Assembly: GCA_006384855.1 (NCBI GenBank)
Contig: VCJN01001028.1
Location: forward strand, 1-64,000
Reading direction: 5' to 3'
Origin: Tetraselmis striata
Lineage: Eukaryota > Chlorophyta > Chlorodendrophyceae > Chlorodendrales > Chlorodendraceae
Length of the DNA: 64,000 nucleotides
Shown here: piece by piece, positions 22,713 to 53,806 of the stretch
Position numbering within the stretch: the stretch's first letter is position 1
How the letters are laid out: each line of letters opens with the position of its first letter
Position numbers and translations under genes: made by a program
The notes under the pieces: model-generated
What the model was told of the DNA's origin: nothing
The model's database searches: none
The model's input: the letters and a program-made list of their open reading frames with translations, nothing else

Positions 22713-24374
22713 CGGTGTAGGGCGCCTTTCGCCGGAGCTGCTGGAGCTTTGCGAGGCCACCTTTCGGTGACCGCCGCAAGACGCACCCTTGCAGCGCAAC
22801 GGCAAGATGAGCGCCCTGTGTCAGGACCTGACCCCCCCACCTTACAGACTTCATTTAGACCTTCCTCGGTGCGGCGCTTCTTACAGCTCCAGCCGAGTGC
22901 GGCTCAACCATCCGCACACCTGCACATGGCGGCTCAACCAACCGCCTTCCTTACCACCCCATCCCTGCGTCCGTTGGTTGTTACACTACGTGTCACAACT
23001 GGTTCGCAACGACCAAGTTTCGCGCGTGTACGTTATGCACGAGACAGGCGCTACGAGCGCGAAGGGCGCGCGGGGCGGCCCTCTTACCTGAACCTAGCCC
23101 CGCAAACCCGTACTGAAGCTACTGCAAACCCGTCCAGCAGCTACCGGCCAACCGCCGGAAACCTAACCGCTGCTGCCGAGTACTTTGCGAACAGTAGTCG
23201 TACTGGTGGAACTCTGTCGGTAAAACGACGCACGTACGTAATTGACGAGCCCGCAGCTGTCGCCCCGTGGGCTGCGTCACTGCGATCCCGGCTGCAGGAC
23301 GCGTTCGGCTCGGACGAGCTGGGCCTGCGAACGCTCGACCTGCTCTCAAGCTCCCTCAGCGCTCAGACACTCAAGAGCTACGCCGGCAGACTGTCTCAGT
23401 TCGCGGAGTTCTGCCACGACTCTGAGAACATCCGCCCGCTAGAGGCGACTACTGCTACTGTCGTTCGGTATGTTGCCTGGATCGGGGAGCGAGGGCAAAT
23501 CGCCGCTAAGTCACTGCAACCTTACATGTCCGCAATCAACACGTTCTTCGAGTTGCACAACCTCGTCCCAATCGCCAAGGACAGTCTACACCTAACTTCA
23601 GCAAGGCGTGGCCTGATGCTGCGTCAACGCCGGCTAGACGCTGCCCCTCTGCGGGTCCCTTTGCCTGCGGATGTAGCCTACCGCTTCGTCACAAAGGCCG
23701 AGCTGATTGTGTCTGCTCCCTACCCAGAGTACCACCACAACTTCCGGGCCCTCCTGGCCTCGGTTGTCAACTTTATGTTCTTTGCCAGGGGCCTTACTGG
23801 CGTGTCCTGTCGAGTGCGAGACGTGCATGTCGACGACTACAACATCACCCTGCAAGTGTACCGCGAAAAGGGTCGCGCTGGCCGACGGGGACCCGACGAC
23901 CTGCGCGTACTTCTCCTTCCGGTGTCCGCGCACCCTCGAGTGGCACGTCTCCTGCACCACTTCATCGACAACGTCCAATCTGTCCCCCTGGTTACTGTTG
24001 ACTTGGCTACATCAAACTTCTGGGCTGTCACTGCGGTCGAGCAGTCAAAACTTTGGACTGCGGCTACAATGTCAGACTGGCTGTCTGCAGCCATCAGTCT
24101 AGTCAACGCTGCCCCCCATGCTGGCACTTCCTGGACTTCACACAGTCTTCGCAAGGGCGCAGCTTCTGCAGCTAACGCCATCGGAGTGCCATTGTCCCAC
24201 ATCCGCTACCAAGGCGGTTGGGCCACTAACTCTGACGTCGTTCTGGACTACATCGACCCCAACGTTCTTCCTTCACCTGGCGCATGGTTCTTCTTTGGAC
24301 ACATCGCCCCCCTCCGCCACTTCCAAGTCCAACAGGACTCCGCAGCGGTGGCCTTCCCAGTGCCTCCTTCATGA
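22713..24374 (+). CDS. Tyrosine recombinase (integrase) of the YR element
   Basis: The frame is continuous with gag except for the TGA at 22710-22712. The first in-frame ATG is at 22926. An N-terminal SAM-like/core-binding part (about 23350-23620; LSAQTLKSYAGRLSQFAEF) is followed by the catalytic part. It has FFARGLTGVSCRVRDV for the first Arg region, SHSLRKGAASAA with the HxxR box (about 24138), GGW, and the nucleophile region VLDYIDP (about 24245). It would cut and rejoin DNA through a 3'-phosphotyrosine, as DIRS elements and Cryptons do. It appears intact. Which start or fusion is used is not settled. Confidence 0.8.
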   Translation, partial: RCRAPFAGAAGALRGHLSVTAARRTLAAQRQDERPVSGPDPPTLQTSFRPSSVRRFLQLQPSAAQPSAHLHMAAQPTAFLTTPSLRPLVVTLRVTTGSQRPSFARVRYARDRRYEREGRAGRPSYLNLAPQTRTEATANPSSSYRPTAGNLTAAAEYFANSSRTGGTLSVKRRTYVIDEPAAVAPWAASLRSRLQDAFGSDELGLRTLDLLSSSLSAQTLKSYAGRLSQFAEFCHDSENIRPLEATTATVVRYVAWIGERGQIAAKSLQPYMSAINTFFELHNLVPIAKDSLHLTSARRGLMLRQRRLDAAPLRVPLPADVAYRFVTKAELIVSAPYPEYHHNFRALLASVVNFMFFARGLTGVSCRVRDVHVDDYNITLQVYREKGRAGRRGPDDLRVLLLPVSAHPRVARLLHHFIDNVQSVPLVTVDLATSNFWAVTAVEQSKLWTAATMSDWLSAAISLVNAAPHAGTSWTSHSLRKGAASAANAIGVPLSHIRYQGGWATNSDVVLDYIDPNVLPSPGAWFFFGHIAPLRHFQVQQDSAAVAFPVPPS

Positions 24375-44067: not shown

Positions 44068-44390
44068 GGTACCCGGACGGAGGACGGGGGGAGGGGGGCA
44101 AAAGACGTGGCTCTTGTAAGCACAGGTGATATGCAAGCTGCTGTGACATGCCGTGGAGTGGCAGATGTTGCATCCCGATTGTACGCGGCCGCCAGGTCGC
44201 CCCCACCGCCTGCGCACCAGCCGCCTCCCGACACCGCTTGTACTACCCCCAAAGGGTTTGGCAGAGGTACCCACAAGGTCTCTAGACATAGGTCGGGCAC
44301 TATGGTGACTGCCAGTACGGCCAGAGGTACTGGAGGGCGCTTATGCGTACGCGTACGTTAAAATGTCCGATTTTCGGGCCCGGAACTGTG

Positions 44391-44977
44391 ATTGGACAGC
44401 CACTGCAACATGTCCCCCCGTCGCCTCCGCGGCCCGCGCACGCAGCTAGTCGACGCCATCGGGAAGCCACTGCACCATGTGCCCCCGTCGCCTCCGCAGC
44501 CCGGGCGTGAAGCTGGTCGGCGCCATTGGACAGCCACTGCACAATGTGCCCCCGTCCCTTCCGCGGCCCGTGCATGCAGCTAGTCGACGCCATCGGGAAG
44601 CCACTGCACCGTGTGCCCCCGTCGCCTCCGCAGCCACCGGGCACGCAGCTAATGGGCGCCATCGGGCCGCCACTTTACCGTGTGCCCCCGTCGCTTCCGC
44701 GGGCCGTGCATGCAGCTGGTCGGCGCCATCGGGTGAGCACTGCACCATGTGCCCCGGTGGCTTCCGCAGCCCGCGCACGCATTTTGTCGGCGCCATCAGG
44801 CAGCCACTGCACCATGTGCCCGTGTCGCTTCCGCGGCCCGGGCATGTTGCTGGTGGGAACCATCAGGCCGCCAGCGCACCATGTTCCCTGTCGCTTCCGC
44901 GGCCAGGGCATGCAGCTAGTCGGCGCCATCGGGAAGCCACTGCACCATGTGCCCCCGTCGCTTGCGCAGTACGGGCA
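44391..44977. repeat. ~67-bp GC-rich satellite, block 4
   Basis: About nine units. The last breaks at ACGGGCA, where the copia element starts. The unit continues at 51699 after GGGCA is repeated. Confidence 0.95.
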
Positions 44978-45454
44978 TGTTGACGAACACTGGTCGAAGC
45001 AGGTGATCAACTGGTCCACTGAAGTGTAAGTGAGCCCATCTGGCTTATACCTTTATGGGCAATTATAGGCCTGATGATAATATATTCGTAATAGTGCAGT
45101 ATAAATTACGGCTACTGCAGAAATGATGGAATGTACTGGTACTATCAAGTGACATATACTGGACCTGCAGAGCAAGACAGGTGTGAGGCATGTGAAGACA
45201 TGCCTCATATAACACTTCATCAAACACACCCAGATTTCTGACAGGTGTCCGACTGAACCTGAATAGCCTTTTAGATATTGGAACCAGATCAAGAAGCATG
45301 AGAAATGGACAGATGAGCAGATGGAGCATGCCCCTAGCAAGGGCATTCTGCAGATGAGAATATAATGGGACATTTCTCATCATTTGTAATTACAATATTC
45401 TGATCCCACAGACTCTGTCCCAACAGCAAGCTAGGAATTCTCCGAACATCTAGA
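44978..45454 (+). repeat. 5' LTR (477 bp)
   Basis: Begins TGTTGACGAACACTGG. It equals the 3' LTR except for a 10-base difference near 45050, where CCTTTATGGGCAATT-like text replaces a shorter stretch. The end is placed at TCTAGA because the downstream flank of the 3' LTR then starts with the target duplication GGGCA; this end is not a canonical CA. Confidence 0.9.
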
Positions 45455-45836
45455 GGTTATGGCTAGCTACACGACTCAAAGCTTCCACTGCTTCTAGCCT
45501 GCTGTTCAGTTCTTCGTGCCTGTGTGCCTGTGTGTCTGTGTGCCTGGAGCTGTGTGCTCGCCTACTTCGTGCCAGCTTTGTGCTTACTTTGTGCCAGCAG
45601 CTTCGCTGCTGAGGAGGGGAAACTGTGTGCCTCTCTCAAACGACTTGTCAAACCCCTGGCCAGCTCTCTCTCGGCAAAACTCGATCGTTCCCTACCTGAG
45701 AAGCGACCCAGCTCCGAGCTCTTCTGCCCCCTACTCAGCTCCACTCTCTGATTGTGGCTGTGACAACCGATCGTCTCAACTTTGGCAAAGCCCCCCCTGT
45801 CAGTCTCTCCGACTGTGTACCTGACTCCCTTGCATC
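45455..45836 (+). other. Copia leader (5' UTR and primer-binding region)
   Basis: Starts GGTTATGGCTAGC, only partly like a copia primer-binding site. No confident tRNA match can be named. Short open frames here precede the long ORF at 45837. Confidence 0.5.
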
Positions 45837-48800
45837 ATGTCTCTCCCTGCCAAACTCAAGCTCAAGGAGGCCAAGTACCTGGAATTTCAGGAGGTCAATG
45901 ATGCTCGCCTCCTTGTGATCTGGTGCATCTCTGTGAAGCGCCACATCCGCGGTGTTCCTGGGTACCGCAACATCTTCAGCGCCAATGACACCACTGTTGA
46001 TGACGCGCATCACAATGAAGCTGTCAGCTTTATGGCTTCCCTACTGCTAGATAATCAAGCCAAGGGCATCGTGCTCAAGGCCGCTGATCGCGTCAATGAG
46101 ACAGCAGGCGGACGCGCGGCGCTCAAGGCCTTGCAGGAACTCCGCGCTTCATACCTTCCAGATGAACGTACCCTTCTCGCTCAACTGAAAGCGTCACTGA
46201 ATCATGGTCAGAGTACTCATGAAAATCTCCTTGACTTCATGACCCGGCTGGAGGAGCTGCAGATTGCCATCAAGGACTGCGGTGCGACTGTCTCGGATGA
46301 CGACATGCTCGTATCCCTGCTCAATGGCATGCGCACTGAGGAGGCCACTATCCGAGCAGTGGTGAAGGGGGACCCCACTGTCACCACCTTCGAGCTGGCC
46401 AAGGCGAAGATCAGGACTGTCCAAGACCACAGCATCAGTATGGAGCAACCTGGCGCTGCCTTTGCTGCCTTTGCGCCAACTGGGGCGACTTCCTACGCTG
46501 CCCTCCAAGCCCGCGTAACTGAGCTGGAAGCTGAGAAGAAGAAGGCTGAGGCTGCAACCCGCAAGTCCGAGGTAGACGAACTGAAGGCTATGGTGGCTGC
46601 AATGCAGTCCCAGCACCACGCTGGAGGCGGCGGCAGTGCACTGCGCTTCAATCCGCCGAACCGCCGCTGCTACAACTGCAATGCCATCGGACATTTGGCC
46701 CGTAACTGCTCCAAGCCCGACAAGAGGAAGACAGCAGGAGAAGGCCGCCCAAGGCTTGCACCTGGTTCAGAGGAGCCGCCCGCCAAGGAGTTTGGAGCAC
46801 TGTCGTTCCACATGGCGCTACTTGCCAGCGCCACACCTGAGCTCCCACCCATGCCGACTGACGCTTGGTCCGTGATGCCTACAAGCCGTCGCACCATGAT
46901 CAGGGCAGCGCCGTCATTCCCGGTCAGCTCCCACAACCCGTTCGGTTCCCTCACCTTCTCCGATGACACCGCCGGCCCAGACGATGAGCCTACCCTCCTG
47001 GAGGAGCGCGAAATGCGAGACGCCATCGCCGCTGTGTCAGCTGAAGAGCAAGCTATCGCTGCCGCCGTTGCGGCAGCCGCTGAGGAGGAAGCTGCGGAGC
47101 GTGCCGCCATTGCTGACGTTGCAGCCTTCATCGCAGCCGACCCTGTGGCCATGTCTGTGGCCCGCACAAGCAAGGCGACCATCCTGCCCAACGACGTTGC
47201 CATGCGCCGAGCTATCATCACAAATGATCCCACCCCACGGCCTGCTGACTGGCTGCACTCGGCCGCCCACCGCTCGAGTAAGGCACCAGTCCCGATGCCA
47301 ACTGTGACGCACGTCGTACCAGCTTCTTGCTTCAACGCGTCGACCAGCAGTGGCATGTCTTCTGACTGCAGCCGCCTGAGCGATCATGATCTCGGGTACG
47401 ACAGCGCCGATGGTGAAGAAGCCATGCTGGTGGATTTCCAGCGTCACTGGGCGCCTGCTGCACTTGCAGCACGTGGCTTCCCTCCCGCTGATGATCTGAC
47501 ATTGTCACCCGTATCTTACGACACTGGCTGCGAGAACAACAGCGTTCCTGGGCTTATTAGTGACGACAGTATCAGTGACAACGACTTCTACCAGCACGCA
47601 AGCCCAGCCTCGCTGTGTGGCGTAACCACTACTCAGCCGCACACGACTGACAACGTCTTCCCCGACTCTGACAACATGCCGCACCTGGCCCCAGACAGCA
47701 CTGATGATGACAAGGCCGTTTCGATCAGTCGCCGCTCCTCCTCGCTGGTCGCACGCAGCAATTCCAGCACCCGTGCACCGCCGCCGCCGCCGCCGCGCCA
47801 TTCGTGCCCCTGCCCGCACCTTCACAGCGTGGCCCAATGCCAGCCTCCCTGGGATTTCCCCAACTGCGCCTGCTGTCATGCGCAACACACATCTGGACGT
47901 TGCCGTGGACTCCTTTCGCCTCGTGCCCCGCGATGCCGTGTCATTCAAAATCTATCGACGCAGCATGCTGCTCCTCACGAGGGGGTCTCATCCAGTAACG
48001 CCAGGCTCTCCATGACCAAGAGCGCACGTCGTCATCGCAATCGCCGCTCACCTCGTCGCCTTCGGAAGCGCGACCCCTTTGCCATCGGCAGCACCAAGCA
48101 CCTTGCAGCCACCACCCCAGTTGTCATCCCCTCGTCCGCTCCCAACGCTATCCACCAACTGGAGAATGCTCTGGCGGCCGCTGAACAGCGTTGTTTCCTG
48201 GGAGAGGCAGCGCCACTGCAGTCCATCCGCCACGTTCGTGCCGACCCTGCAGCACTGGTGCCCCACCATCCACTCCATGTTGTCATCCTCTGCGCAGGAG
48301 CCACATTTGGCGTCATTGACGGACTTTGTGCAGCCGGACACTGCATTGCTACCATCACACTCGTGGAGAATGACGCAGCAGTGCGTGCTGCCGGGATCCT
48401 GGAGCTCAACAGAGTTCGTGCGAAATGGACTGCGCTCATCTCATCTGATGCGATCGCCAATGCCTACGATCGCCTCCCCACTCATGACGTCCAGCTCCTC
48501 ACCACAGACATGTTTGCCGCACTTCCGCGTGTGGACCTTCTCATGGCAACACCTCCGTGTCAGCCGTTTTCATCAGCTCGGAGGAATCAAAGCCTGCATG
48601 ACCAGCGAGCCAAGCCCTTCTATCCCGTCTGCCGTCTCGTCAAGCAGCTCAACCGCGCACAGAGCAGTATTACGTACGTCATCGAGAATGTCGCTGGAGC
48701 CAAGCGTTTCCCCGCCATTTGCGCAGCCCTAGGGGACCCTGTCCTGGCCCGCGCACACGAGCTTGGATCATCATCCCGCCGCGACACCCTACTCTGGACC

Positions 48801-49562
48801 AACGCGCGCAACCCGGACGCTTTGCAGGCCAACTACCATCGTTCGCTCTGTCGCCCGACCAGCGTGGGCGATTTGATTGCCAAGGGTGGCTTCGCACCGG
48901 AGTGGCAGGCTCCCGCCCACCTGCGTCACAGCAAGTTTGGCAACTTTGTGTCCCGCAAAGGCAGTTTCGCGCACCGGATGCATGGGTCCACCCCGGGCCG
49001 CAGTATGTTGCTACACAATGGCGTGTATGAGGAGGCACCCGCCGACATCAAATGCATCTCTATGGGCTTCGATGCCAACGCCGTCGACTTCCCCGAGGTG
49101 TCCGCCGATCTGCATCGACGTATCATTGGAGCGTGTGTGGACTCCAACGTGGCAGGCTGGCTGATGGCGGCCATCTCCTCCGCGTCCAAGGACGAGAGCG
49201 CTCTTCCTAGCATTCACACCTTCCCCCACAAATGGATCTTCGACTCTGGCGCTACCTCACACATGGTGGCGCAGTACGAGGACTACTCCGACTATCAGAC
49301 CATACCGCGCCGATGGATCAGCGGCTTGGGCGCCTACGCTGTGGGTACCGGTACAGTCCATATCAGCATGCGAGCCGTCAACGGCGATACATCCTGCAGC
49401 ACCCTTCACAACGTTCTTCATGTGCCTGATCTCGCTTCCCGCACCAATAACGAGGTGCTCCGTCTCTTCAGTGCGCGGCAGGCGCAGGATGCCAATGCCG
49501 CTCTACAGATAGTCATGACATCGCGCAGCAGCGCCATTCCCATCGAATCTCCGATGCCGTGA
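45837..49562 (+). CDS. Copia ORF1: Gag - cytosine-5 DNA methyltransferase - protease (1241 aa)
   Basis: Gag helical region about 1-200 (UBN2-like, with ELRASYLPDERTLLAQL and LLNGMRTEEATIR). Coiled coil about 215-260. CCHC knuckle about 276-291 (CYNCNAIGHLARNC). Low-complexity, Pro- and His/Cys-rich region about 440-790. Methyltransferase about 810-1110. Aspartic protease with WIFDSGATSHMV about 1130. It ends at TGA 49560-49562; the remaining pol text is in the -1 frame and overlaps by four bases, so frameshifting or a one-base mutation is needed. The ATG at 45837 is preceded by TGCATC and no longer start exists in frame. Confidence 0.88.
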   Translation: MSLPAKLKLKEAKYLEFQEVNDARLLVIWCISVKRHIRGVPGYRNIFSANDTTVDDAHHNEAVSFMASLLLDNQAKGIVLKAADRVNETAGGRAALKALQELRASYLPDERTLLAQLKASLNHGQSTHENLLDFMTRLEELQIAIKDCGATVSDDDMLVSLLNGMRTEEATIRAVVKGDPTVTTFELAKAKIRTVQDHSISMEQPGAAFAAFAPTGATSYAALQARVTELEAEKKKAEAATRKSEVDELKAMVAAMQSQHHAGGGGSALRFNPPNRRCYNCNAIGHLARNCSKPDKRKTAGEGRPRLAPGSEEPPAKEFGALSFHMALLASATPELPPMPTDAWSVMPTSRRTMIRAAPSFPVSSHNPFGSLTFSDDTAGPDDEPTLLEEREMRDAIAAVSAEEQAIAAAVAAAAEEEAAERAAIADVAAFIAADPVAMSVARTSKATILPNDVAMRRAIITNDPTPRPADWLHSAAHRSSKAPVPMPTVTHVVPASCFNASTSSGMSSDCSRLSDHDLGYDSADGEEAMLVDFQRHWAPAALAARGFPPADDLTLSPVSYDTGCENNSVPGLISDDSISDNDFYQHASPASLCGVTTTQPHTTDNVFPDSDNMPHLAPDSTDDDKAVSISRRSSSLVARSNSSTRAPPPPPPRHSCPCPHLHSVAQCQPPWDFPNCACCHAQHTSGRCRGLLSPRAPRCRVIQNLSTQHAAPHEGVSSSNARLSMTKSARRHRNRRSPRRLRKRDPFAIGSTKHLAATTPVVIPSSAPNAIHQLENALAAAEQRCFLGEAAPLQSIRHVRADPAALVPHHPLHVVILCAGATFGVIDGLCAAGHCIATITLVENDAAVRAAGILELNRVRAKWTALISSDAIANAYDRLPTHDVQLLTTDMFAALPRVDLLMATPPCQPFSSARRNQSLHDQRAKPFYPVCRLVKQLNRAQSSITYVIENVAGAKRFPAICAALGDPVLARAHELGSSSRRDTLLWTNARNPDALQANYHRSLCRPTSVGDLIAKGGFAPEWQAPAHLRHSKFGNFVSRKGSFAHRMHGSTPGRSMLLHNGVYEEAPADIKCISMGFDANAVDFPEVSADLHRRIIGACVDSNVAGWLMAAISSASKDESALPSIHTFPHKWIFDSGATSHMVAQYEDYSDYQTIPRRWISGLGAYAVGTGTVHISMRAVNGDTSCSTLHNVLHVPDLASRTNNEVLRLFSARQAQDANAALQIVMTSRSSAIPIESPMP
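48262..49170 (+). CDS. Cytosine-5 DNA methyltransferase domain within copia ORF1
   Basis: Motifs in order: I, VVILCAGATFGVIDGL (AdoMet binding); II, TLVENDAAVRAAG; IV, MATPPCQPFSSARR with the catalytic Cys (about residue 906); VI, YVIENVAGAKRF (ENV, about 948); VIII, GSSSRRDTLLW (about 980); IX-like, CISMGFDANAVDFPEVS; X, RRIIGACVDSNVAGWL. All motifs needed for methyl transfer are present without a break. Spacing and the ENV-to-motif VIII text recall DNMT3-like enzymes, but the assignment to a DNMT class is tentative. Codon usage is continuous with the flanking gag and protease. Confidence 0.88.
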
Positions 49563-51181
49563 CCATTCCCATCGAGAATGGCGGGCGCTTATTTGTCCTG
49601 CACAGTCACGTGCTCCGTCAGGGACGGCATCAACGTCATGGTAGTCCGGTGGAAGCAACCACAGCCCTCTCCGCAACACCCTCCAGCGCGTTACCATCTG
49701 ACAAAATGTTGTGGCATGCGCGCCTCGGTCACATCCACGAGCGCCCCATTCACCGAGTTACCAATGGGGGACCCAATGCCGACCTGCGTCATACCAGCCT
49801 TCCGTTCTGCAAGACATGCGCAATCGTCAAATCCACTGTGGCCCCGATGCCGCGCATCTGTCATGAGAAACCAACTGTGCCATTCTCTCTCGTTGGGAGC
49901 GACTTCTGGGAGCTGCGCACTCCTTCGCTGCAAGGCCACACGTACTGCTGTGGGTACGTCGACTGCGCGACATCCCTAGTGTGCTTGTTCTTCTGCAATT
50001 CCCGGCAATGTGCTACCGCTACTCTGCGTTCATTCAGCACCATGGTGGCCAGCTACGGCCATTCGATCGCAGCATTGCGTCTGGACAACGATTCAGCCTT
50101 CCACGGTCAAGCATATGTGTCCGCCTGCGACGCCCTAACCATTCGCCGCATATATGCAGCACCATACAGCCAGTTCCAGAATGGGCTGATGGAGCGCACC
50201 TGGCGCACCCTCAGCCAATGGGCTTGCTGTATGCTGGACTACGCCAGCCTCCAAGACACCTACTGGGAGTTCGCTATGTCAGTCGCAGCCTACATCTATA
50301 ACCGCACCTTCTGCCGTGGCGTTCATGGAATTCCACTTCACCTCGTGACTGGCGCCATCCCAGACTTGCGCCATCTCCGTGTGTTTGGCTGTGATGCCTA
50401 TGCGCACGTTCCCCGCAGTACCCGGCACCAGGCTGCCCCATCCGCCCGCCAAGGTGTCTTTGTTGGATACTCCACAGACTCGCCGGCATGGCTTGTGTAC
50501 TTTCCCGCCACACGCTCTGTTGTGGCCAGTCAATCCGTCAGCTTCGATGAAAATGATCGCTCAACGCCCTGCACCCTGGAGTACCCCGATTCATGGCCGT
50601 CTGCAGCCCCTCGGGAGGGGATGACTACAGAGTCAGGAGGGGCCACAGCCGCAAAGACAGGAGGGGCTGTGCCCCGAGCAGTATGCCCTACCTGCTCGGC
50701 ATCAACCCATGACCGGGGACTGACTTTCGGAGGAGAATGCGAGTTTCGTCTTCATGCTAACTTCCCAACAACGTATCCCAGTCAGTGCAAGTCGACCAGC
50801 GGTTATGTATTCTTTCTTGCAGGAGCAGCCGTCAGCTACCTATCCAAGCTTCAGCCATTGGTAGCACTCTCGACAGCAGAGGCAGAATATATAGCGCTTT
50901 GTGTCACAGCGCAGGAGGCAATGTTCTTGAGGCAGATGCTATCAGAACTGGGATTCAGGCAGGGCGGCGCCACAGCAATCGGAGAGGACAACCAGGCATG
51001 TATTACAATTGCCACCAACGACGTGACCTCAGCCCGGACCAAGCACCTGGACATCCGACTTCACTTCGTGCGAGATGCACACGCTCTAAGAAAATCAAGG
51101 TGTACTATGTGCCCACTGCTGACATGCTGGCTGACACCTTCACGAAGCCACTTGCGTCCCGCCAGCAGTTTGAGGCCTTGA
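49559..51181 (+). CDS. Copia ORF2: integrase and RNase H, reverse transcriptase absent
   Basis: GAG-pre-integrase LWHARLGHIHERP with a downstream zinc-binding C-x2-C (FCKTCAI). Integrase core with Asp in VGSDFWE, Asp in ALRLDNDSAF and Glu in QNGLMERTWR. Chromo-like end VFVGYSTDSPAWLVYF. After LEYPDSWPSAAP comes about 60 residues of unrelated text, and then RNase H (CKSTSGYVFF ... STAEAEYIAL ... GEDNQACITIA). The whole RT domain (about 250 residues) is missing. The first RNase H Asp region reads LHANFPT instead of Y.DADWA, so RNase H is probably inactive too. A frameshift near 51090 moves the C-terminal text (KIKVYYVPTADMLADTFTKPL) to another frame ending at 51237. Confidence 0.85.
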   Translation: MTIPIENGGRLFVLHSHVLRQGRHQRHGSPVEATTALSATPSSALPSDKMLWHARLGHIHERPIHRVTNGGPNADLRHTSLPFCKTCAIVKSTVAPMPRICHEKPTVPFSLVGSDFWELRTPSLQGHTYCCGYVDCATSLVCLFFCNSRQCATATLRSFSTMVASYGHSIAALRLDNDSAFHGQAYVSACDALTIRRIYAAPYSQFQNGLMERTWRTLSQWACCMLDYASLQDTYWEFAMSVAAYIYNRTFCRGVHGIPLHLVTGAIPDLRHLRVFGCDAYAHVPRSTRHQAAPSARQGVFVGYSTDSPAWLVYFPATRSVVASQSVSFDENDRSTPCTLEYPDSWPSAAPREGMTTESGGATAAKTGGAVPRAVCPTCSASTHDRGLTFGGECEFRLHANFPTTYPSQCKSTSGYVFFLAGAAVSYLSKLQPLVALSTAEAEYIALCVTAQEAMFLRQMLSELGFRQGGATAIGEDNQACITIATNDVTSARTKHLDIRLHFVRDAHALRKSRCTMCPLLTCWLTPSRSHLRPASSLRP

Positions 51182-51221
51182 ACTCGCGCATCATGAACTA
51201 CAATATTGCACCTGCAACCAG

Positions 51222-51231
51222 TGAGGAGGGG
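51222..51231 (+). promoter_or_regulatory. Polypurine tract of the copia element
   Basis: Purine run TGAGGAGGGG directly before the 3' LTR. This is the expected plus-strand primer site. Confidence 0.7.
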
Positions 51232-51698
51232 TGTTGACGAACACTGGTCGAAGCAGGTGATCAACTGGTCCACTGAAGTGTAAGTGAGCCCATCTGGCTT
51301 ATAGGCAAATAGGCCTGATGATAATATATTCGTAATAGTGCAGTATAAATTACGGCTACTGCAGAAATGATGGAATGTACTGGTACTATCAAGTGACATA
51401 TACTGGACCTGCAGAGCAAGACAGGTGTGAGGCATGTGAAGACATGCCTCATATAACACTTCATCAAACACACCCAGATTTCTGACAGGTGTCCGACTGA
51501 ACCTGAATAGCCTTTTAGATATTGGAACCAGATCAAGAAGCATGAGAAATGGACAGATGAGCAGATGGAGCATGCCCCTAGCAAGGGCATTCTGCAGATG
51601 AGAATATAATGGGACATTTCTCATCATTTGTAATTACAATATTCTGATCCCACAGACTCTGTCCCAACAGCAAGCTAGGAATTCTCCGAACATCTAGA
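51232..51698 (+). repeat. 3' LTR (467 bp)
   Basis: Same start and end as the 5' LTR. Apart from the 10-base indel I saw no difference, which implies a recent insertion. Confidence 0.9.
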
Positions 51699-52340
51699 GG
51701 GCACAACAGCTGCTCGGCGCCATCGGGCCGCCACTTCACCATGTGCTCCTGTCGCTTCCGCGGCCCCCGGTCACACAGCTGGTCGGCGCCATCGGGCCGC
51801 CACTTTACCGTGTGCCCCCGTCGCTTCCGCGGGCCGTGCATGCAGCTGGTCGGCGCCATCGGGCCGCCACTCCACCATGTGCCCCCGTCGCTTCCGCGCC
51901 CCCCAGGCATGCAGCTGGTGGGCGCCATTGGACCGCCACTGCAACATGTGCTCCGGTCGCTTCCGCGGCCCCCGGGCATGCAGCTGGTAGGCGCCATCGG
52001 GCCGCCACTTTACCGTGTGCCCCCGTCGCTTCCGCGGCCCGTGCATGCAGCTGGTTGGCGCCATCGGGCAGGCACTGCACCATGTGCCCCGGTGGCTTCA
52101 GCAGCCCGCGCACGAATTTTGTCTGCGCCATCAGGCCGCCACCGCATCATGTGCCCCGGTGGCCTCCGCGATACGGGCACACAGCTGGTCGGCGCCATCG
52201 GGTTGCCGCTGCGCCATGTGATCTGTCGCTTCCGCGGCCCCGGCATGCAGCTGGTTGGCGCCAACGGGCCGCCACTTCACTGTATGCCTCGCTTGCTTTC
52301 GCAACCCCGGGCACGCAGTTGGTCGGCGCTGTCTGGCGGT
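51699..52340. repeat. ~67-bp GC-rich satellite, block 5
   Basis: About nine units continuing block 4 after the copia insertion, ending where the duplicated FEA flank begins (TTGTCTGGCGGTCGCTGC-like, as at 36160). Confidence 0.95.
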
Positions 52341-53806
52341 CGCTGCACGCTTGGCTCGTCGGGCTGCACCTACTGCAGCCCCACCATGCGCGGAGCTTGC
52401 TTCATACTACATCGTCCACTTTTCACTGCTTGCCCTGCGCACGCCCCGCCGTGCGACAGTGGCCAGCCGTGTTTCTCAAAGGCGGTCGCTGCTCTCCCGC
52501 CCGGCCGCCGCTCTCCGGGCGGCGCCCAAGATTGTCAAGCAATGTGCCTGCGCCCCCTGCCTCCCTTGAAATGTATACTAGTAGTAGTTGCTTGGGGTTT
52601 CCTCTTCCCTTGTCTACGTTGCAGGCGCGGGACAGCACCTATACGGTGCTAGTATGTCCACATGGCGTGCCCGTAACGCCTGATGAGTTGCATCGACCCA
52701 ACAGCACCTCGGCAATTTCATCGTTCACCGTATGTTGACAGACACCCCTACGGCACTATCCCGGCGCGGGGTTCCCGACGTAGGCGTCCCAGGCAGTGCT
52801 GCTCCCGCATGGTGTTTCGTCGTGTGCTTAAGAGCACCAGGGGCTTGTCTGTCCCCAAATTCCTTTGTCGCGGCGCACCCACCATGGGTCGCGCCGTGAC
52901 AGCTACACCCAACCTCCCGTCACTTCGTTCAGATTCGCGGGTCTGCCTCTCAGGCTTTCCGGCCCCTCCCAATAGCTTTTTAATGATGCCGAAGCATATT
53001 TTCGGCTATATGACTGCGCCCCCTCCCTCCCTTGAAATTTATTCATTGAAGTCTCAAACCGGTAGTTGCTAATACATGCGGACATGCTAATACTATTAAT
53101 TGTGTTTGCTGTGACCCATTCATTATCTATTATGTTTTATATCCAATTCCAATACTTCCACCATTCTAATATAATAATTTACTTATAGACTGTTTGGCCC
53201 GGCAGCGGCGGGTGATCCGGCCCCCCACACTCCCCGCAGATCCGCAAGATTCCAAACGTCGCAGCAGGCAACAGGCTCCGCCCAGTGCCAAAGGTAGGGC
53301 AAAACAAAACATAACCCCCCTACAGGTACCGGTACCAGTCAATGCAATGTGGTTATTCATGCATTCAAGACAATGAAGAATTGCTGATGACCACATGTAC
53401 CCAGCAACACACCAGTATAAGCAGATAGAGTGCCACGAGTGAAAATTTAAGTTGTGTACCACCATGTTGACATAACATTTACAGCGGCATGCGCTTATTG
53501 ATATATCTAACAGTTTGATAGCAATAGCACTCACTTTCAGCACAACAAGCAATATCTCTCGCGCTGCGTGGTAGCAACATCGCACTCCATCCTTGCTCTC
53601 AACAGTGTGCGCTCATTACATACGGATCAACATTTATCAGGATGGGCAACTATTGCACGCTGATAGTGCCCGCTGATGGTGTCGCACACAGCTGCTGCTC
53701 TACTGTTGCTCGCTGTAACTGAGCATAGCGCAGACTGCACAAAACGCCGACTAAGGAGAGGGCTATTGGACGGCAATCCATCAATTCCCTAATTGGTGAA
53801 GACGCT
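52341..53806. other. 3' flank of FEA-like copy 2; duplicate of 36181-37640
   Basis: No gene recognised. Similarity to the copy 1 flank is near complete with small indels. Confidence 0.7.
53479..53483 (-). terminator. Possible TGTAA poly(A) signal, FEA-like copy 2
   Basis: TGTAA on the minus strand about 325 bases after the stop, conserved with copy 1. Confidence 0.3.

Follow-up and report, generated by a model that had tools for sequence, protein, structure and literature searches.

Here, we analysed a Copia-type long terminal repeat (LTR) retrotransposon whose polyprotein includes a predicted cytosine-5 (C5) DNA methyltransferase (MTase), located in a stretch of 64,000 nucleotides (contig VCJN01001028.1; in the following 'the window') from the genome of Tetraselmis striata, a chlorophyte of the class Chlorodendrophyceae. 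The element spans positions 44978-51698 and is flanked by the 5-bp target duplication GGGCA (unstranded; 5' copy 44973..44977, 3' copy 51699-51703), which places its ends exactly where a sequence-only reading of the same stretch had put them. All further features of the element lie on the + strand. Its first open reading frame (ORF1; 45837..49562) encodes 1241 amino acids (aa) in the order Gag-like region, CCHC zinc knuckle, spacer, MTase and protease, unbroken as that reading had described. The knuckle (aa 277-293, 46665..46715) matches PF00098 (E 1.1e-5), PF00145 (DNA_methylase) matches at aa 879-954 (37.2 bits, cut-off 22, E 3e-9; Pfam), and the protease region (aa 1133-1201, 49233..49439) is covered by Pol_BBD (PF22936) beside a DSGA, which we take to be the protease site. 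Homology sets the span of the MTase domain at aa 791-1113 (48207..49175), close to the residues of about 810-1110 read before, and four of the motifs announced there are confirmed: IV (PPCQ, containing the previously noted PCQ; catalytic Cys at 48558-48560), VI (ENV, 48684-48692), VIII (Arg, 48780-48782) and X (GACVDSN, 49128-49148). We further take LCAGATFG to be motif I in an unusual form. The claimed Gag was recovered in its knuckle, but not as a Pfam domain: no Gag or RNase H model scored above cut-off in the window ORFs, and the putative Gag-like region is labelled by position and knuckle, the putative protease and RNase H by characteristic motifs and homology.

ORF2 (49559..51181), shifted in frame relative to ORF1, contains gag_pre-integrase (49691-49831), the integrase core rve (49880-50170) and SH3 (50351-50557), each above the Pfam cut-off, and ends running directly into RNase H-like sequence. 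The window copy has no reverse transcriptase (RT), as 1479 bp between integrase and RNase H are gone compared to RT-bearing relatives. The junction of this deletion lies at 50698..50724 and the RNase H remnant, recognised by homology to RT-bearing copies and by characteristic motifs, at 50720..51115. A polypurine tract (GAGGAGGGG, 51223..51231) precedes the 3' LTR (51232..51698), which is 97.9% identical to the 5' LTR (44978..45454) over the aligned stretch, plus a small indel, and the 5' LTR adjoins a putative primer-binding region (45455..45475) that begins with GGTTATGGC. LTRs and target duplication, both expected of a Ty1/Copia element, are thus present, and the typical order with integrase-region domains ahead of RVT_2 is found in the relatives described below, the window copy keeping the integrase without RT. 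In addition, its reading frame is broken between protease and integrase, and 12 bp are missing from the RNase H stretch. We classify this copy as a defective, non-autonomous family member; the claim of a Copia element therefore holds for the family, but not in the sense of a working copy. The insertion site is a 67-bp tandem minisatellite (44292-44980 and 51692-52314), in which long ORFs, e.g. 51741-52652, are probably spurious.

But, is the MTase a peculiarity of this one copy? Searching the T. striata genome (224 Mb, 2903 contigs) with the MTase, we found at least 120 matches (116 of 504 candidates were scored, counts being lower bounds), which include at least four MTase-bearing Copia families. 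Full-length MTases of family A are ~89-95% identical to that of the window, those of B1 and B2 ~44-51% and those of C ~32-34%; shorter pieces cover a wider range of identities and some could not be placed in a family. The best protein matches of ORF1 are T. striata gene models, 94% identical across the MTase, and family-A MTases elsewhere in the genome match such models at up to 99.7% (L004 vs P0002). The full-length relatives that the sequence-only reading had proposed to look for exist as single open polyproteins in every family (L010 of A, 2295 aa; L016 of B1, 2468 aa; L018 of B2, 2118 aa; L021 of C, 2132 aa), with the order Gag-like, spacer, MTase, Pol_BBD, integrase region, RT and RNase H-like, and with RVT_2 and SH3 above the Pfam cut-off throughout. 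Among the matches listed, 66 of 80 RT matches of the four families have an MTase match upstream (B2 31/34, A 11/12, B1-like 8/10, C 16/24), pairing being defined as same strand and at most 4.5 kb upstream, so that an unpaired RT need not mean absence of the MTase. A fragment of a host gene caught in a single copy is ruled out by these at least 120 matches and the 66 of 80 paired RTs. Neither a unique fragment nor relatives lacking the domain, the two outcomes named beforehand as fatal, was found for A, B1, B2 and C; the second does apply to a sister family, D, which has an open Copia polyprotein of 1561 aa and in which the MTase profile had no match in the two copies read (L076, L077). LTR pairs were found in 16 of 17 other loci (none in L025) and are 98.5-100% identical, some being cut by locus ends, and 5-bp target duplications, read by eye, flank 14 of 14 printed copies. 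Judging from these sequences, the MTase families are multi-copy and inserted recently. At the putative primer-binding region, GGTTATGG is shared with printed B1 and B2 copies; it presumably resembles the complement of the anticodon arm of transfer RNA (tRNA)-Met, which suggests an internal tRNA primer for A, B1 and B2 elements. Such a primer is used by Drosophila copia.

The loss of RT recurs within family A. Identical breakpoints of the 1479-bp deletion were found in the window copy, L012, L013 and L014, and a search of the genome for the junction sequence gave 12 places, of which 9 match exactly and 3 have a single mismatch (0 for a reversed control pattern), about as many as the family-A RT matches listed (12); an MTase match lies upstream of ten of these junctions among the matches listed. 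In the T. striata gene model P0004, too, the integrase region is followed by RNase H with no RT in between, and the MTase of this model shares 98.7% identity with that of L013. Because the LTR pairs of L012 (99.4%), L013 (100%) and L014 (100%) are nearly or fully identical, the RT-less subfamily appears to have spread recently, presumably mobilised in trans by the RT of full-length family-A elements. The MTase of L012 is 98% and those of L013 and L014 are 92% identical to that of L010, all three with the same RT deletion, and this occurrence on two MTase backgrounds points to recombination between element copies. In the RNase H segment, RT-bearing L010 reads GYSD and L012-L014 read GYSN, while the motif is deleted in the window.

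We read 31 full-length MTase copies, 25 of them without a stop codon, and motifs IV, VI, VIII and X are all kept in 22 of these 25 (the exceptions being L013, L014 and L024). Ratios of non-synonymous to synonymous substitution rates (dN/dS; Nei-Gojobori, pooled over within-family pairs, with the B1 and C sets including copies with a stop codon, which was skipped) were 0.24 (A), 0.47 (B1), 0.55 (B2) and 0.31 (C) for the MTase, compared to 0.26, 0.37, 0.20 and 0.21 for RT, 0.36, 0.56, 0.29 and 0.55 for the integrase region, and 0.67, 0.72, 0.74 and 1.01 for the spacer adjacent to the MTase. By these ratios, purifying selection on the MTase is clear in A and C, at or nearly at the level of RT, while the spacer drifts; the estimated constraint is intermediate in B1, and weaker in B1 and B2 than in A and C.

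Relatives of the enzyme are not confined to T. striata. Three metagenomic Copia polyproteins (P0007, P0008, P0020) carry an MTase of the same lineage in the same domain order; P0020 (2106 aa) reaches RNase H-like sequence, and P0007 and P0008 end before RT. A further metagenomic polyprotein, P0038, encoded on a 7.5-kb contig, is Gypsy-type with an RVT_1-type Pol, and its MTase is placed together with a PHD finger between the RNase H-like and integrase regions, i.e. a methyl-writer adjoins a possible chromatin reader. A Copia-MTase profile built with P0007 and P0008, but without P0020 and P0038, gave 292 bits for P0020 and 286 bits for P0038, whereas the best free-standing MTase reached 47 bits. 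Across families and metagenomic relatives, the MTase persists even where its identity to that of the window is only 31-50%. The phylogeny recommended by the sequence-only reading gave a separate position with regard to the enzymes included: retroelement MTases split from DNMT3A, M.HhaI and bacterial enzymes with support of 99.6/100 on a long stem, and, when phage enzymes were added, DNMT3A, phage, bacterial enzymes and M.HhaI fell on one side (100/100) and the retroelement MTases on the other. As to membership of the DNMT3 family, the observations diverge: DNMT3A scores best of three references, but the tree places it beside the phage and bacterial enzymes, and M.HaeIII leads the sequence matches in the PDB. 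For host DNA methyltransferases (DNMTs), the comparison is one of model scores for the loci read, given below. P0038 groups with C, P0008 and P0020 (98.7/100) in a tree of retroelement MTases, with poor support inside the group, and adjoins the outgroup at 32/46 in the tree with phage enzymes. On this evidence, one orphan MTase lineage is present in two LTR superfamilies, Copia and Gypsy. None of the proteins obtained by similarity search was recognised as a retroelement MTase of Klebsormidium or Symbiodinium.

Concerning the origin of the domain, a tree of integrase and RT unites 14 MTase-less Copia proteins from metagenomes and databases (100/100), in none of which the MTase profile had a match, apart from A, B1, B2, C, D, P0007, P0008 and P0020; single-domain trees are weaker, and RT alone places P0020 within the MTase-less Copia proteins (66/77 with P0032). 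The deep split of {A, B1, B2, P0007} from {C, P0008, P0020} appears in both the MTase tree (98.7/100) and the Pol tree (99.8/98), an agreement that is expected if both parts descended together. The edge uniting the MTase-positive set has a support of 17/18. Approximately unbiased tests accepted monophyly of the MTase-positive set (p = 0.53; 0.17 for the maximum-likelihood tree, which has the same likelihood), a grouping of D with that set (p = 0.58) and a grouping of A, B1, B2 and P0007 with D apart from C (p = 0.33). A single capture, a single capture with D inside the group and separate captures are therefore all compatible with the trees.

Recent donors were sought as well. A capture from bacteria finds no support, as 32 prokaryote stretches matched one motif pattern and none encoded a relative, and free-standing relatives score low at best (47 bits; 66 bits for the phage contig L032 with a wider profile). 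A recent capture of a host DNMT finds no support in the loci read: a DNMT1 query returned 16 places in the genome, and none of the 12 loci read, which cover 13 of these places, exceeds 15.8 bits with the retro-MTase model, while some give no match. A DNMT3A query of the T. striata genome found nothing, in a search that had no positive control. In the accessible part of a transcriptome survey, no DNMT3 is listed for the surveyed green algae, and DNMT6 is listed for three Tetraselmis (PMC9998398). Apart from this, the genome contains another C5 MTase ORF, unrelated, present in multiple copies and ~325 aa long (L084-L089, L092, L093; contigs C776, C1647, C1993, C355, C1455, C2337, C2272, C1230), with GPPCVGLS in three printed copies, perhaps located on another mobile or virus-like element. 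In the window itself, a 541-aa ORF (22749-24371, +) has a phage-integrase SAM-like N-terminal domain that passes the Pfam cut-off, together with a tyrosine-recombinase match below threshold, and probably belongs to another mobile element.

Why should a retrotransposon carry an enzyme of this type? Host cytosine methylation normally silences retrotransposons. We suggest, with moderate confidence, that the T. striata Copia families use the MTase placed between Gag and protease as a packaged enzyme which methylates the complementary DNA (cDNA) of the element, the window copy being a non-autonomous member of such a family. Since the domain lies in frame between nucleocapsid and protease, it should enter the virus-like particle as part of Gag-Pol, where it could be released or left tethered to the nucleocapsid. 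It would then methylate element cDNA before or around integration, so that new copies would carry the mark from the moment of insertion. This methylation could let them pass as native sequence, protect their DNA or set their chromatin state. We infer the activity and the packaging as well as the resulting element-encoded self-methylation.

The same location, behind the RNA-binding CCHC knuckle, would also suit an enzyme that acts near the nucleocapsid on RNA, either element RNA or the tRNA primer, and not on cDNA. Sequence matches of the MTase profile in the PDB, led by M.HaeIII, include DNMT2-type tRNA MTases, and RNA methylation is raised for SymbioLINE-Dnmt in the accessible text of PMC5890265. 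With the wider profile, DNMT3A (38.8 bits) is the best of three references, ahead of M.HhaI (30.1) and DNMT1 (9.8), which speaks against an RNA target, but this score weighs little because DNMT2 was outside that comparison. Altogether, we regard an RNA target as unlikely.

Methylation of the element could, on the other hand, serve self-silencing, in that the enzyme marks its own element for host repression and thereby curbs copy number and harm. CG methylation silences elements in many eukaryotes, slower transposition is offered as an option in the accessible part of PMC5890265, and several families show a mild excess of CG transitions (CG/CHH transition rate: A 1.74, RT-deleted A 3.40, B1 2.39, B2 1.18, C 1.78; 0.83 in family D, from 9 transitions, which are too few for an adequate control). 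Recent success is shown, however, by LTR pairs that barely differ and by intact frames, of which each of the four families has at least one. Moreover, selection for self-limitation on its own would require that the element gains from it, so that we consider self-silencing quite unlikely.

Several observations weigh against a packaged, cDNA-methylating enzyme. Profile matches are patchy: CCHC passes the Pfam cut-off in A alone, stays under it in B1 and B2 and is missing from the hits listed for C; PF00145 falls short in B2 (18.7 vs 22); and rve is sub-threshold in A and likewise missing from the hits listed for C. Motifs IV, VI, VIII and X of a C5 MTase are present, but the residue before the catalytic Cys varies: PPC in A, B1 and B2, and, without Pro at that place, PCC in C and PDC in P0007. 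The B2 ratio of 0.55, based on 48 changes, is near that of the B2 spacer. L013 and L014 differ by 2 synonymous and 8 non-synonymous changes in the MTase (dN/dS 1.36), an invariant motif X residue is changed in both and a motif VIII residue in L014, and the MTase looks relaxed in RT-deleted copies. The MTase and Pol trees disagree, at weak support, in that B2 and P0007 trade positions. The excess of CG transitions is modest and uneven, giving a hint of CG methylation. Finally, family D by identity (50-52%) accounts for 94 of the 150 RT matches that were scored from 925 candidates; as D is abundant and lacks the MTase in the two copies read, the domain is not needed for success. The unusual residue in C and P0007, the relaxation in RT-deleted copies and the abundance of D would suit a domain without catalytic activity, a passenger or structural spacer that persists through its place in the Gag-Pol frame. 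Such a role is contradicted by purifying selection near the RT level in A and C, unlike in the adjacent spacer, by the four motifs in 22 of 25 stop-free copies and by retention of the domain across families and metagenomic relatives as divergent as described above, and we deem it improbable. For reference, the MTases with differing pre-Cys residues can be found at L016 3993-5012 (+) and L021 5249-6298 (-).

The cDNA-methylating enzyme may be part of a larger scenario: a dedicated, exchangeable lineage of retroelement cytosine MTases that differs from the tested host DNMT families would have been acquired once in an ancient algal Copia element, packaged, passed to or from Gypsy elements, and would methylate cDNA in the particle before integration. 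We put this forward tentatively, as a possibility somewhat short of probable. Elements with their own MTase would invert the usual arms race between host and retrotransposon, and the position upstream of the protease suggests a testable route by which a methyl mark is delivered to new DNA in the particle. Self-methylation can be put to the test with the young families that have open frames, with the MTase-less sister family D as natural control and with the RT-less subfamily, and T. striata is a culturable alga.

Among open-access literature, we found only PMC5890265 to be devoted to DNMT-carrying retrotransposons (subscription papers and Repbase could hold more), and DNMT terms had no match in PMC7264820 or PMC9289625, while PMC12477816, in its accessible part, mentions algal DNA transposons that carry an MTase of the N4/N6 type. 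One passage in this literature may be either a slip for Gypsy or a further report of such an element, and no chlorophyte host is named there. According to the accessible text of PMC5890265, whose main text there makes no mention of Tetraselmis or chlorophytes, the Dnmt3 domains encoded by Symbiodinium DIRS elements act as de novo CG methyltransferases in yeast, no methylation was obtained there with the LINE and Klebsormidium Gypsy enzymes, a result that the authors call inconclusive, Symbiodinium Copia elements are without any DNMT domain, and self-methylation of cDNA is proposed for DNMT retroelements. As in such DNMT-encoding retrotransposons, the MTase of T. striata lies inside the coding region and is conserved across copies. 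Generic Ty1/Copia elements, including family D, share the order protease, integrase, RT and RNase H with RVT_2, and differ by the MTase, for which L076, L077 and the 14 tree proteins gave no profile match. P0038 is alike in its MTase (286 bits) and differs as a Gypsy-type element with MTase and PHD finger before the integrase region. SymbioDIRS-Dnmt3 and SymbioLINE-Dnmt are, as far as described in the accessible text of PMC5890265, likewise multi-copy retroelements with C5 MTases congruent with RT trees, but the former is a DIRS element with tyrosine recombinase and the latter a LINE, whereas the T. striata elements are Copia. The same text describes KnitGypsy-Dnmt3 of Klebsormidium nitens as a green-lineage LTR element with a cytosine MTase in its polyprotein and reported purifying selection; it is set apart by description, being a Gypsy element with the MTase within Pol, assigned to Dnmt3 by the authors, while the T. 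striata enzyme is of an orphan lineage and placed between Gag and protease of a Copia element. DNMT-carrying LINE, DIRS and Gypsy elements are thus known, and a chlorophyte Copia element with an MTase between Gag and protease appears to be new.

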